NCBI GenBank assembly: GCA_903822185.1
Contig: CAIJOA010000028.1
Coordinates: forward strand, 310,001-374,000
DNA from: an uncultured Rhodospirillales bacterium
GTDB taxonomy: Bacteria; Pseudomonadota; Alphaproteobacteria; ATCC43930; CGMCC-115725
Direction of reading: 5' to 3'
Length of the DNA stretch: 64,000 bases
Shown here: in pieces, positions 20,751 to 63,231 of the stretch
Numbering within the stretch: position 1 is the first letter of the stretch
How the letters are laid out: every line of letters begins with the position of its first letter
Position numbers and translations under genes: made by a program
The notes under the pieces: generated by a model
Told to the model about the DNA's origin: nothing
Seen by the model: only the letters and a program-made list of their open reading frames with translations
Database searches by the model: none

Positions 20751-22463
20751 TCAGAACAGGAAATAGCGTTGCGCCATCGGAAGCTCCTTGGTGGGTTCAC
20801 AGGTCAGCAACACGCCGTCGGCGCGCACTTCGTAGGTTTCCGGATCGACCTCGATCCGCGGCAAGGCATCGTTCAGCACCATGTCCTTCTTGCCGATGCC
20901 GCCGCGGGTATTCTCGACCGCCAGGATCGGGCGGTTGAGGCCGAAAGCATTGCCGATGCCCGAACTGGCGGCGGCGCGACTGGTGAAAGTCACCGCGCTT
21001 GCCGTGACGGCGCGGCCGAAGGACGCGAACATCGGCCGGTAATGCACCGGTTGCGGCGTCGGGATCGAGGCATTGGGATCACCCATCTGCGCGGCGGCGA
21101 TGCTGCCGCATTTCAAAACCGTGTCCGGCTTAACGCCGAAGAAGGCCGGCGACCAGACGACGAGATCGGCGAGCTTTCCGACCTCGACCGAGCCGACATA
21201 GCGCGAGATACCCTGGGCGACCGCCGGGTTGATCGTGTATTTAGCGATGTAGCGGCGGGCGCGGAAATTATCGTTGTCGCCCTTTTCTTCCGGCAAACGG
21301 CCGCGCTGCTTCTTCATCTTGTCGGCGGTCTGCCAGGTGCGGATGATCACTTCGCCGACGCGGCCCATCGCTTGACTGTCGGACGAGATGATCGAGAAGG
21401 CACCGAGATCGTGCAGGATGTCCTCGGCGGCGATGGTCTCGCGCCGGATGCGGCTTTCGGCGAAGGCAACGTCTTCGCTGATCTTCGGATCGAGATGGTG
21501 GCAGACCATCAGCATGTCGAGATGCTCGTCGAGGGTATTGACCGTGTAGGGCCGCGTCGGATTGGTCGAGGATGGAATGACGTTCGGCTCGCCGCAGAGG
21601 CGGATGATGTCGGGCGCGTGCCCGCCGCCCGCGCCTTCGGTATGGAAGGCATGGATGGTGCGGCCCTTGAACGCCGCGATCGTATCCTCGACGAAGCCCG
21701 ATTCATTGAGCGTGTCGGAATGGATCGCGACCTGAACGTCGTGATCGTCGGCGACCGAGAGGCAGCAATCGATCGCTGCCGGCGTCGTTCCCCAATCCTC
21801 GTGCAGCTTCATGCCGCAGGCCCCTGCCTCGATCTGCTCGATCAGCGCACGCGGCTGCGAGGCATTGCCCTTGGCGAAGAAGCCGAGATTCATCGGGAAA
21901 GCTTCAGCGGCTTGGAGCATCCGCGCCATGTGCCATGGGCCTGGCGTGCAGGTCGTCGCCGAGGTCCCCGCCGCCGGCCCCGTGCCGCCGCCCATCATCG
22001 TCGTCACGCCGGAATCGAGCGCTTCCTCGATCTGTTGCGGGCAGATGAAATGGATATGCACGTCGATGCCGCCGGCGGTGATGATCTTGCCTTCGCCCGC
22101 GATCGCCTCGGTGCCCGGTCCGATGATGATATCGACGCCGGGTTGGATGTCGGGATTGCCCGCCTTGCCGATACCGACGATGCGGCCTTCCTTAAGGCCG
22201 ATATCGGCTTTGATGATACCCCAGTGATCGAGGATCAGCGCGTTGGTAATGACGGTATCGACCGCCCCTTCGCTGCGGCTGCGTTGGCTCTGCCCCATGC
22301 CGTCGCGGATGACCTTGCCACCGCCGAATTTGACCTCTTCGCCGTAGATCGTCCGGTCTTCTTCGACCTCGATGAACAAGTCGGTATCCGCGAGACGAAC
22401 GCGGTCGCCGGTGGTTGGGCCGAACATGCCGGCATAGGCGGAACGGGAAATGCGGGTGGCCAT
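20751..22463 (-). CDS. ureC: Urease catalytic subunit alpha UreC
   Basis: The protein has 570 residues, the usual length, with an intact active site. His136 and His138 (IDVHIH), the carbamylated Lys219 (CGMKLHED), His248 (VAIHSD), His274 (HAFHTEG) and Asp362 ([12 protein letters not shown]) are the expected nickel ligands. The mobile flap [22 protein letters not shown] carries Cys321 and His323. Together with UreA and UreB it hydrolyses urea to ammonia and carbamate in the cytosol. It is followed by ureE after 4 bases and preceded by ureB at 5 bases. Confidence 0.98.
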
Positions 22464-32212: not shown

Positions 32213-32304
32213 TGGCGGAGGGGACAGGATTCGAACCTGCGATAGGTTTTGACACCTATAACGGTTTAGCAAACCGCCGCCTTCAGCCACTCGGCCACCC
32301 CTCC
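32213..32304 (-). tRNA. tRNA-Ser (anticodon GCT)
   Basis: Reverse-complement reading gives a 92-base class II tRNA. The acceptor GGAGGGG pairs with CCCCTCC, the D-arm is TGGCCGAGTGGCTGAAGGC, the anticodon stem-loop GCGGTTTGCTAAACCG carries GCT, a long variable arm (TTATAGGTGTCAAAACCTATC) follows, then the T-arm GCAGGTTCGAATCCTGT. The discriminator is G and CCA is encoded (32213-32215). The long variable arm and the anticodon identify serine, reading AGC/AGU. Confidence 0.96.
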
Positions 32305-61751: not shown

Positions 61752-61843
61752 AACGGCGAATCCTAGGCTCAGAGTTGTCAGAGCACCGCGGGCCCGACGG
61801 AATGAACCGAGGGCCACGGTACGAAAACATCAACCGGCAATCA

Positions 61844-61856
61844 GGGCGAAGCGCCC
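61844..61856 (-). other. Hairpin B of the decarboxylase leader
   Basis: GGGCGAAGCGCCC on the plus strand (minus strand GGGCGCTTCGCCC) folds as a GGGC/GCCC stem with a small loop. Its arm CGAAGCGCCC (61847-61856) is the exact complement of GGGCGCTTCG in hairpin A. Confidence 0.6.
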
Positions 61857-61954
61857 GTCCTTACCGGATAATAATTTAGATTTGACTACTGCTGGGCTCA
61901 GAGGTGCCGCGACCACCGAGGCCACGAGCGTCCCTGATTTGCCTGGGTGTTACG

Positions 61955-62116
61955 TCAGGCCAGGGCGCTTCGGCCCTGCGTCGGATAGCAACCATATCGA
62001 GCTCCCTCTCGGGACCGGCCCACATTTGACCGGCTCTGCCAAAAAGGACGCGTTACGTCGTTGCATAACCACGATGGGCCATAGGCACGTGCGAGTGCGT
62101 CGCGGACGACAGACAT
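61955..62116 (-). CDS. Putative upstream ORF of the decarboxylase leader
   Basis: A 53-residue reading frame, MSVVRDALARAYGPSWLCNDV...TQGRSALA, ends with TGA at 61957-61955. Its last codons encode GRSALA and run through hairpin A. The ATG has no clear Shine-Dalgarno. An alternative 23-residue frame starts at ATG 62124 (MRLCLSSATHSHVPMAHRGY) and ends near 62053. A leader peptide whose translation controls hairpin choice is plausible, but nothing proves it is translated. Confidence 0.3.
   Translation of the reverse strand: MSVVRDALARAYGPSWLCNDVTRPFWQSRSNVGRSREGARYGCYPTQGRSALA
61961..61978 (-). other. Hairpin A of the decarboxylase leader
   Basis: CAGGGC (minus strand 61978-61973) pairs with GCCCTG (61966-61961) around CGAAGC: a 6-bp perfect stem inside the last codons of the putative upstream ORF. 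Plus-strand GGGCGCTTCG (61963-61972) is complementary to hairpin B. Confidence 0.6.
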
Positions 62117-62202
62117 AGTCGCATTTTTTTCTGATGCAAGAAAAAATTGGCGTTGAGGCAATTTTTTTGCCTAAGCGTGACTTTGCCAGTCGTCAAAGGT
62201 GG

Positions 62203-63231
62203 TTAAGGGGTGCTCGAGCATCTCGAAACCGCTGCCAGGAAGGCATCGACCGCCTCGACGCGCGTGTCGAACGCCGTGACGAGACGAAGCACCGGCTCCT
62301 CGCCCCAGCGATAGAAACCGAATCCTTCCCGCTGAAGCTGCGCGACCGACGATTCGGAAAGCGCGACGAACACCTCGTTACCTTCGACCGGATGAACGAG
62401 GCGCGTTCCCGGCAGCGCGGCGAGCCCAGCGCCAAGGCGCGCGGCCATCGCGTTGGCGTGACGCGCGTTTCGTAGCCACAGATCGTCGTTCAGATACCCA
62501 TCGAGCTGCGCCGACAGGAAACGCTGCTTCGACACCAGGTGACCGCCTCGCTTGCGCCGGAAGCCGATCTCCGCCGCTTTGGCTTTGTCGAAGAAGATCA
62601 CCGCTTCCGCCGCCAGCGCGCCATTCTTAGTCGCACCAAACGACAACGCATCGACGCCGGCGCGCCAGGTGATCGCCGCCGGCGAGCAGCCGAGACCGAC
62701 GATCGCGTTGGCAAACCGCGCACCATCCATGTGAAGACCCAAGCCGTGCTCGCGCGCCAGCGCGCTCAGTGCGGCAACTTCATCGGGCGTATAGAGCGTC
62801 CCCGCCTCGGTCTGTTGGGTAATGCTGATCGAAGCCGGCTGAACGTGATGAACGACGCCTTTCCCCGCGAGATGCGACGAAAGCGTCTCAACGGTGAGCT
62901 TGCCGTGCTCGCCTGACAACGGGACGAGCTTCGCGCCGCCGGTAAAGAATTCCGGCGCGCCACACTCGTGATTGGCGATGTGCGCGTCCTCGTGACAGTA
63001 AAGCGCGCCCCAGGGCGGCGTCAGCGCAGCGAGCGCCAAGACGTTGGCGGCCGTGCCGGTCGCGACCGGGAAGACCGCGACCTCATGCTCGAAAATCTCC
63101 GCGAATCGGCGTTCCAGCCGCTGGGTGATGTCGTCGCCGCCATACGGGGTAGCTGCACCGTGATTGGCGGCTTCGATCGCTGCGAGGATTTCGGGCGAGA
63201 CGCCCGCGACATTGTCCGAGGCGAAATTCAC
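62203..63231 (-). CDS. ltaE: Low-specificity L-threonine aldolase-type PLP enzyme
   Basis: The 342-residue fold-type I PLP enzyme starts at GTG 63231 (NFASDNVAGVSPEILAAIEAANHG), whose ATG-like start overlaps the stop of the upstream gene (GTGA), so it is translationally coupled. Signatures are DNVAG, GTAANVLALAAL, HEDAHIANHECGAPE, LHMDGARFANA with the PLP-binding Asp169, and LSFGATKNGALAAEA with the Schiff-base Lys202. It cleaves threonine or allo-threonine to glycine and acetaldehyde. It lies just upstream of the decarboxylase leader on the same strand. Confidence 0.92.
   Translation of the reverse strand: MNFASDNVAGVSPEILAAIEAANHGAATPYGGDDITQRLERRFAEIFEHEVAVFPVATGTAANVLALAALTPPWGALYCHEDAHIANHECGAPEFFTGGAKLVPLSGEHGKLTVETLSSHLAGKGVVHHVQPASISITQQTEAGTLYTPDEVAALSALAREHGLGLHMDGARFANAIVGLGCSPAAITWRAGVDALSFGATKNGALAAEAVIFFDKAKAAEIGFRRKRGGHLVSKQRFLSAQLDGYLNDDLWLRNARHANAMAARLGAGLAALPGTRLVHPVEGNEVFVALSESSVAQLQREGFGFYRWGEEPVLRLVTAFDTRVEAVDAFLAAVSRCSSTP

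Follow-up and report, generated by a model that had tools for sequence, protein, structure and literature searches.

Introduction

The alphaproteobacterial speF leader (Rfam RF00518) was described before ornithine decarboxylase genes by Corbino et al. (2005), and in the accessible part of that paper the A. tumefaciens RNA was negative with six compounds, a list from which homospermidine is absent. The S. meliloti small RNA SmrC45, the counterpart of Rfam ar45 (RF02347), is placed at the speF locus in the available portion of one report (PMC2573895); in excerpts of a further report its 5' end was mapped, its 3' end was assigned by assumption to the U-run, and its length was given as 181 nt (PMC2780559). 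According to partial texts of other sources, SmrC45 co-precipitates with Hfq, and in Bartonella ar45 and speF transcripts were observed apart, with a trans role for ar45 suggested by the authors. In E. coli, again from partial texts, ribosomes are reported to stall at the speFL stop codon in response to ornithine, and a spermidine-dependent mdtU uORF has been proposed. As far as these sources extend, ar45, speF, their adjacency and the separate expression of ar45 are already in print.

Here, these systems are compared with the leader at positions 61752-62202 of the window, a term used throughout for the whole 64 kb stretch of DNA that was analysed. This leader is real and, judged from its sequence, looks regulatory, though its main elements differ from those picked out in the sequence-only reading.

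Loci and Search Models

The window's genome (G000) comprises 4.27 Mb in 50 contigs. Family loci were sought in 39 genomes, 38 of which gave a match, and 30 decarboxylase loci were kept; 80 further loci came from the genome collection and 14 from Rfam speF matches. After removal of duplicates (L031-L036), a leader that was too short (L099) and one without a gene start (L107), 116 leaders were scanned. The most similar decarboxylase in the collection (92%) belongs to locus L031, labelled uncultured Rhodospirillales bacterium. Covariance model R1, with 69 positions and 17 pairs, was built from 53 training leaders, from which the window and its genus were excluded.

The Leader and Its Decarboxylase Gene

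The earlier statement that the interval between the aldolase-like gene (62203-63231; ltaE in that note) and the decarboxylase holds no ordinary gene was borne out. The best solved relative of the decarboxylase is a lysine/ornithine decarboxylase (PDB, E 1.4e-59) and Pfam Orn_Arg_deC_N is above its cut-off in the product, which reached no NCBIfam equivalog cut-off; the gene is named ornithine decarboxylase because its orthologues follow speF leaders. The features of the leader are collected in Table 1.

Table 1. Positions of the features in and next to the leader (window coordinates).
Feature	Position	Strand	Description or basis
Promoter-like boxes	62139-62112	minus	TTGCAT (62139-62134), 16 nt, TATGTC (62117-62112); by eye
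Conserved RNA core	62104-62036	minus	69 nt; covariance model R1, 86.2 bits, E 2.5e-21
Core stem P1	62101-62097 with 62051-62047	minus	GACGC pairs with GCGUC
Core strands	62092-62084 and 62064-62056	minus	GCACGUGCC and GCAACGACG; hairpin P2 in between
Core U-tract	62046-62039	minus	CUUUUUGG
Hairpin P3	62033-62014	minus	CCGGUC...GGCCGG, between U-tract and ribosome site; alignment A1 and fold
Shine-Dalgarno site	62010-62002	minus	GAGAGGGAG; same or similar site before the ATG in other scanned leaders
uORF	61995-61876	minus	39 codons, MVAIRRRAEAPWPDVTPRQIRDARGLGGRGTSEPSSSQI; frame differs from that of the sequence-only reading; translation predicted
Hairpin A	61978-61961	minus	within the uORF, some 17 nt past the A of its AUG
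AGU codons	61890-61885	minus	two in-frame serine codons close to the uORF end
Spacer hairpin B1	61867-61834	minus	contains hairpin B of the sequence-only reading; fold
Spacer hairpin B2	61820-61785	minus	fold
Ornithine-decarboxylase-like gene	61751-60615	minus	378 aa; PLP decarboxylase; PDB, Pfam

Boxes similar to the promoter-like ones stand ahead of the core in relatives (by eye), and a consensus scan found no promoter at 62139-62112. A transcript starting downstream of 61961, which would lack both hairpins of the earlier note, is made less of a concern by the upstream core and these boxes; the concern is not removed, given the consensus scan.

A Conserved RNA Core

The most conserved part of the leader is the 69-nt core, which the sequence-only reading did not mention. 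Across leaders, a variable P2 lies between the two strands, P1 surrounds the strands, and CUUUUUGG usually follows. Strands resembling GCACGUGCC and GCAACGACG were found at a fitting distance in 103 of the 116 scanned leaders. Among the 13 leaders without them, five (L047, L064, L074, L080 and L081) gave a match once the covariance model was applied, and two (L024 and L028) stand in second position, behind another decarboxylase that bears the core. Magnetospirillum-type leaders have CUUCUGG in place of the full U-tract, so that an attenuator is not universal.

R1 gave a single match on the 64 kb window and one match at E<=0.01 on the window's genome. A search of 98 loci, including the 53 on which it had been trained, gave 95 matches. 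When 385 genomes sampled from the class were searched, 95 matches were obtained in 77 genomes, 16 of which had two or three copies; Rfam speF matched 14 of the same 385 genomes, including four that R1 missed (G111, G229, G322 and G399). In a 398-genome sample of the phylum (40 of the 398 sample rows being listed), 20 genomes were R1-positive, all of the window's class.

In the R1-fitted alignment, 7 of 17 core pairs have changes on both sides (58 cells versus a shuffled mean of 19.1), and the covariation score of the core was 0.136 versus 0.081 in shuffles (0/500 shuffles) and 0.005 to 0.096 in slid controls; this alignment leans towards structure, and part of the covariation depends on the fit. 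Only 77.7% of the P1 cells are paired, in part through misplacement of this stem by the fit in some clades. Double changes are clear in P1 (GACGC/GCGUC in the window versus GCCC/GGGC in rhizobia) and in P2, and one core pair changes from U-A to C-G in L037 and L045. RNAalifold on a MAFFT alignment gave little covariation support, with a double change in 1 of 12 pairs. The core alone folds no better than its shuffles (z -0.21), which was counted against the feedback reading of the leader.

A second uORF, starting from an ATG that overlaps GCAACGACG, was rejected: this ATG is CAG in Zavarzinia leaders, where GCAACGACG is kept, and the strand is therefore read as RNA. A local terminator-like hairpin (GACGU-AAC-GCGUC) was also set aside, one having been found against a shuffled mean of 0.5.

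Matches to Rfam Families

The Rfam ar45 model gave 22.6 bits on the leader (E 0.012 in 651 bases) at 62100-62044, below its gathering score of 40; this sub-threshold match and the R1 core are the same element. As in ar45, the GCACGUGCC and GCAACGACG strands of the window are closed by P1 and followed by a U-run, and the rhizobial loci were aligned accordingly (alignment A2). Rfam ar45 was found in 11 of the 77 R1-positive genomes (10 over the cut-off), and R1 matched the same place in all 11, seven of which belonged to its training set. The window leader is judged, by its core, to be homologous to ar45, though on Rfam scores it qualifies as neither ar45 nor speF.

An Infernal-type check with Rfam speF (gathering score 37 bits), as the earlier note had proposed, gave no match in the window, nor in the leader at E<=10, and none among 61 relatives, and speF as the identity of the window leader is ruled out by score. 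The leader is upstream of a COG0019-type ornithine decarboxylase whose orthologues follow the 14 Rfam speF loci. L116 passes the Rfam cut-offs of both families; its ar45 (1410-1492) and speF (1501-1679) elements adjoin, and R1 covers the ar45 part (1407-1499). The link of the window leader to speF runs through the ar45 core, which stands before speF. The earlier proposal of a regulatory leader of the alphaproteobacterial speF kind is supported, with conserved RNA structure and a tie to polyamine synthesis, and the match to RF00518 is absent. None of the Rfam riboswitch families matches the leader. Elsewhere in the window (22022-22311, plus strand), Rfam 5_ureB_sRNA (RF02514), a family described in another setting, matches with 131 bits, well over its cut-off.

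Genes Downstream of the Core

For the downstream survey, 80 of the 95 matches were taken with about 2.2 kb of downstream sequence where the contig allowed, the other 15 being the earlier loci and the window. Of the 92 assessable core copies, 90 precede polyamine biosynthesis genes; three further copies are at a contig end. The first gene is ornithine decarboxylase after 60 copies (45 newly fetched and 15 earlier), a second decarboxylase family after 24, in eleven of which homospermidine synthase then follows within the stretch, homospermidine synthase itself after five, and AdoMet decarboxylase with spermidine synthase after one (L174, 1-2567). The training leaders of R1 all belonged to ornithine decarboxylase genes, so its 30 matches ahead of other polyamine genes count as a blind result. 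The two remaining copies precede non-polyamine ORFs, namely a 136-aa ORF without a Pfam match (L158) and a class I glutamine amidotransferase (L229); the frame of the latter continues from an AUG after the core.

Each gene type other than ornithine decarboxylase was identified from one member: homospermidine synthase from PDB 4xq9 (E 9e-177), and spermidine synthase and AdoMet decarboxylase from NCBIfam models above cut-off. The second decarboxylase is of COG0019 type and similar to lysine/ornithine decarboxylases, with its substrate putative, and the member analysed reached no NCBIfam cut-off. This decarboxylase, often followed by homospermidine synthase, was seen at L155, L160, L161, L164, L167, L172, L183, L187, L195, L201 and L233.

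The window's genome has a homospermidine synthase (68% identical to the L177 enzyme), and its only spermidine-synthase-like match is weak (32%, E 1.7e-10). R1 found no core upstream of this homospermidine synthase, so that in the window's genome only ornithine decarboxylase would be controlled in this way.

The Upstream ORF

The sequence-only reading had proposed a probably translated ORF before the decarboxylase. Such an ORF is supported, in another frame than the one named there. The 53-codon frame with its end at 61955 has its ATG (62116) within the presumed -10 box, ahead of the core, and lacks a Shine-Dalgarno site; on these grounds it is probably absent from the mRNA, and the uORF at 61995-61876, preceded by GAGAGGGAG, is likelier. 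An ORF of this kind occupies the equivalent place in each of the 28 family leaders in which the decarboxylase comes right after the core. For the 18 of these 28 uORFs that were aligned, the other ten aligning poorly over their full length, pN/pS is 0.55 in frame versus 1.12 and 1.20 in the other frames, and 0.40 over the last 12 columns; the family reading frame is, as this ratio indicates, under selection. The signal is weak in 19 Magnetospirillum-type uORFs (0.83 versus 0.82 and 1.05; last 12 columns 0.66), and four Nitrospirillum-type uORFs gave 0.50 versus 1.25 and 1.14. A further 22 leaders (Parvibaculum, Ferrovibrio, Magnetovibrio and others) have at this place an AUG that serves as the start codon of the decarboxylase, which then carries an N-terminal extension, and rhizobial leaders have no conserved ORF there (by eye).

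A Rare Serine Codon in the uORF Tail

An in-frame AGU was found within the last nine codons of 58 of 65 uORFs, versus 0 of 65 in each of the other two frames of the tails. Of the serine codons, AGU accounts for 64 of 138 in these tails, for 13 of 146 in the uORFs ahead of the tails and for 20 of 1349 (1.5%) in the decarboxylase genes at the same loci (Fisher p 3e-55 for tails versus genes, kinship being ignored). Its peptide context varies by group (DPSSLS, DVRSTSKR, RSSMRAPD, HISSI, NPFSSM, RNSMK), and none of the 22 N-terminal extensions formed where the AUG starts the enzyme contains it. The set of 65 leaves out L041 and L071, in which the ORF enters the gene start, and L072 and L077, for which frames of 2 and 12 codons were picked; L073, L079 and L084 gave no uORF start, and for L052 and L070 the start was assigned manually. 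Visual inspection of L072 showed a different ORF that does contain AGU, outside the count of 58.

Seven of the 65 uORFs lack AGU, including that of L002, the closest relative. The 3' end of the L002 uORF is in a different frame from the window's, and an AGT lies in another frame about 133 nt before the gene; the frame difference is either a real change or an assembly error.

Among the 24 leaders of the second decarboxylase, AGU was found in three short ORFs, those of L160, L189 and L190, in a scan that found no start in four of the 24 and took a wrong frame in at least two more. The one leader before the AdoMet decarboxylase-spermidine synthase pair (L174) has an 8-codon ORF, MSGSSLRG, with AGU. 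None of the five homospermidine-synthase leaders has AGU, and four of their five short ORFs finish with Arg-stop. Short ORFs that end in Arg-stop or nearly so after the core, often as CGG TAA, were noted at L177, L180, L209, L211, L161, L164, L167 and L187; before homospermidine synthase and the second decarboxylase, such endings are perhaps another type of leader-peptide ending. The sole tRNA gene in the window encodes a tRNA-Ser with anticodon GCT (32213-32304, minus strand), which reads AGC and AGU; its presence together with AGU in the uORF is probably a coincidence.

Hairpins and Spacer

Hairpin A, placed by the earlier note at the end of its upstream ORF, exists and is kept across the family, with 136 of 150 cells paired in 25 distinct leaders (39, 71, 67 and 93 in controls slid from -3 to +1); it sits near the start of the likelier uORF and not at its end. 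Hairpin B (61856-61844) exists as well, 61856-61847 is the exact complement of 61972-61963 as had been stated, and the nine-base direct repeat CTCTGAGCC (GGCTCAGAG on the plus strand) does occur twice in the stretch, with first bases at 61903 and 61774. The 10-base complement is locally unusual, being reached in 2 of 500 dinucleotide shuffles of the spacer. The switch built on it did not hold up as a conserved feature: only the window and one other of the 28 family leaders reached p<=0.05 for the pairing.

The spacer at 61875-61783 folds with -47 kcal/mol (z -4.44, 0/200 shuffles). Over 65 leaders, the spacers have a mean z of -1.41 and the opening 90 nt of the genes one of -0.21, and z is below -2 in 21 of 65 spacers versus 3 of 65 gene starts. 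A terminator scan found none behind B1 or B2. By eye, L007-L009 and L012 have a hairpin past the uORF stop with changing stems and a similar loop, a genus-level counterpart of B1.

Discussion

A cis-acting polyamine-feedback leader, in which an orphan riboswitch-like element is coupled with a leader peptide, is the reading to which we give somewhat better than even weight. It draws on the strong R1 match, the polyamine genes behind 90 of 92 copies, the both-sided changes in P1 and P2, the selection on the uORF, the AGU codon and the SmrC45 ends. Counted against it are the negative results of Corbino et al., the z of the isolated core, the seven uORFs without AGU, the weak selection in Magnetospirillum-type uORFs, the absence of an ORF in rhizobia, the lack of a core before the homospermidine synthase of the window's genome, and the partial dependence of the covariation on the alignment.

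In the proposed mechanism, the nascent core would fold and sense polyamine status, serving as a riboswitch-like aptamer or else as a site for a protein, and P1 and the U-tract would choose between a stop, which yields the ar45 small RNA, and read-through. The read-through mRNA would then be translated from the uORF, and a ribosome pause at the rare AGU near its end would decide whether the B1/B2 spacer blocks or permits decarboxylase expression. We infer the sensing, the signal and both outputs; the leader would work like an attenuator with a leader peptide. The attenuator step is suggested by the mapped 5' end and the U-run 3' end of SmrC45, in the accessible part of that work, and the leader-peptide step by the selection on the uORF and its AGU codon. 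The likeliest signal may be the end product, for which homospermidine is a candidate because its synthase is in the regulon and in the window's genome and because it is absent from the compounds in the accessible part of Corbino et al.

Control by the leader peptide alone, in which an arrest peptide encoded by the uORF senses ornithine or a polyamine in the ribosome as SpeFL does and the core merely starts or stabilises the transcript, would account for the selection on the uORF and for AGU, and the E. coli examples of speFL and, as proposed, mdtU, known from partial texts, are in its favour. Conservation is, however, higher in the core than in the peptide, and the core persists in the 22 leaders without a separate uORF and in rhizobial leaders without an evident ORF, and we consider this explanation unlikely. 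We attach the same low probability to control by a protein or a trans-acting RNA, whereby Hfq or some other protein binds the core, or ar45 is a trans-acting small RNA, and the ligand-free RNA is no sensor. The co-precipitation of SmrC45 with Hfq, the separate Bartonella transcripts with the trans role suggested there, and the failure of Corbino et al. to find a ligand for the A. tumefaciens RNA, all taken from excerpts, speak for it; against it, 90 of 92 copies are tied to polyamine genes and stand in cis before several types of them, which a purely trans-acting RNA would not need.

Much less probable is the switch put forward in the sequence-only reading, in which ribosomes on the upstream ORF choose among hairpin A, hairpin B and the A-B pairing: the exact complement, rare as it is among shuffles, is outweighed by its restriction to two family leaders including the window and by a 53-codon ORF that was probably never transcribed. 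A structured, non-regulatory leader, the least probable of these explanations, would agree with the fold of the isolated core, no better than that of shuffles, and the case for regulation is made here from sequence alone; the near-invariant core over the class, the common gene set, the both-sided changes and the in-frame selection speak against it.

The feedback reading can be extended, more tentatively, to the whole class. A single element, with ar45 as its first half and speF as its rhizobial continuation, would possibly run a class-wide alphaproteobacterial polyamine regulon and feed back on the pathway from putrescine to homospermidine or spermidine, probably via homospermidine, through an AGU-bearing leader peptide to ornithine decarboxylase. 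The wider distribution of the core, its gene set, the uORF with AGU and the cases in which the AUG starts the enzyme were not found in the open-licence literature searched, as excerpts; Greenlee et al. (2018), outside that scope, may contain part of this. The speF RNA has counted among the orphan riboswitch candidates since 2005, and the marking of a polyamine gene set by the ar45 half narrows the signal. The set of homospermidine synthase, the second decarboxylase, AdoMet decarboxylase/spermidine synthase and ornithine decarboxylase leads to a short list of RNAs and compounds, and the in-frame AGU offers a sharp handle on the leader-peptide step.

Comparison With Known Systems

The spermidine riboswitch, a close variant of a SAM aptamer, is an RNA that senses a polyamine, as the window core would, and the available portion of its main text mentions neither speF nor homospermidine (PMC10853860). 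With E. coli SpeFL the window leader shares a short ORF before an ornithine decarboxylase gene, but it differs in having an RNA core before this ORF and a kept rare AGU codon. SpeFL presumably precedes a decarboxylase of another family, and its peptide ending is, we assume, not common to window-type uORFs. Of the parallel drawn in the earlier note, the short ORF before the decarboxylase stands, and the parallel is at best an analogy. The speF leader occupies the same position before the orthologous decarboxylase; its rhizobial fold is replaced in the downstream half of the window leader by a uORF with a Shine-Dalgarno site. The closest likeness in the core itself is to ar45/SmrC45, with which the invariant strands, P1 and the U-tract are shared, whereas ar45/SmrC45 has been described as a small RNA of Rhizobiales and the window core has a shorter P2 and represents a non-rhizobial form that stands before several polyamine genes.
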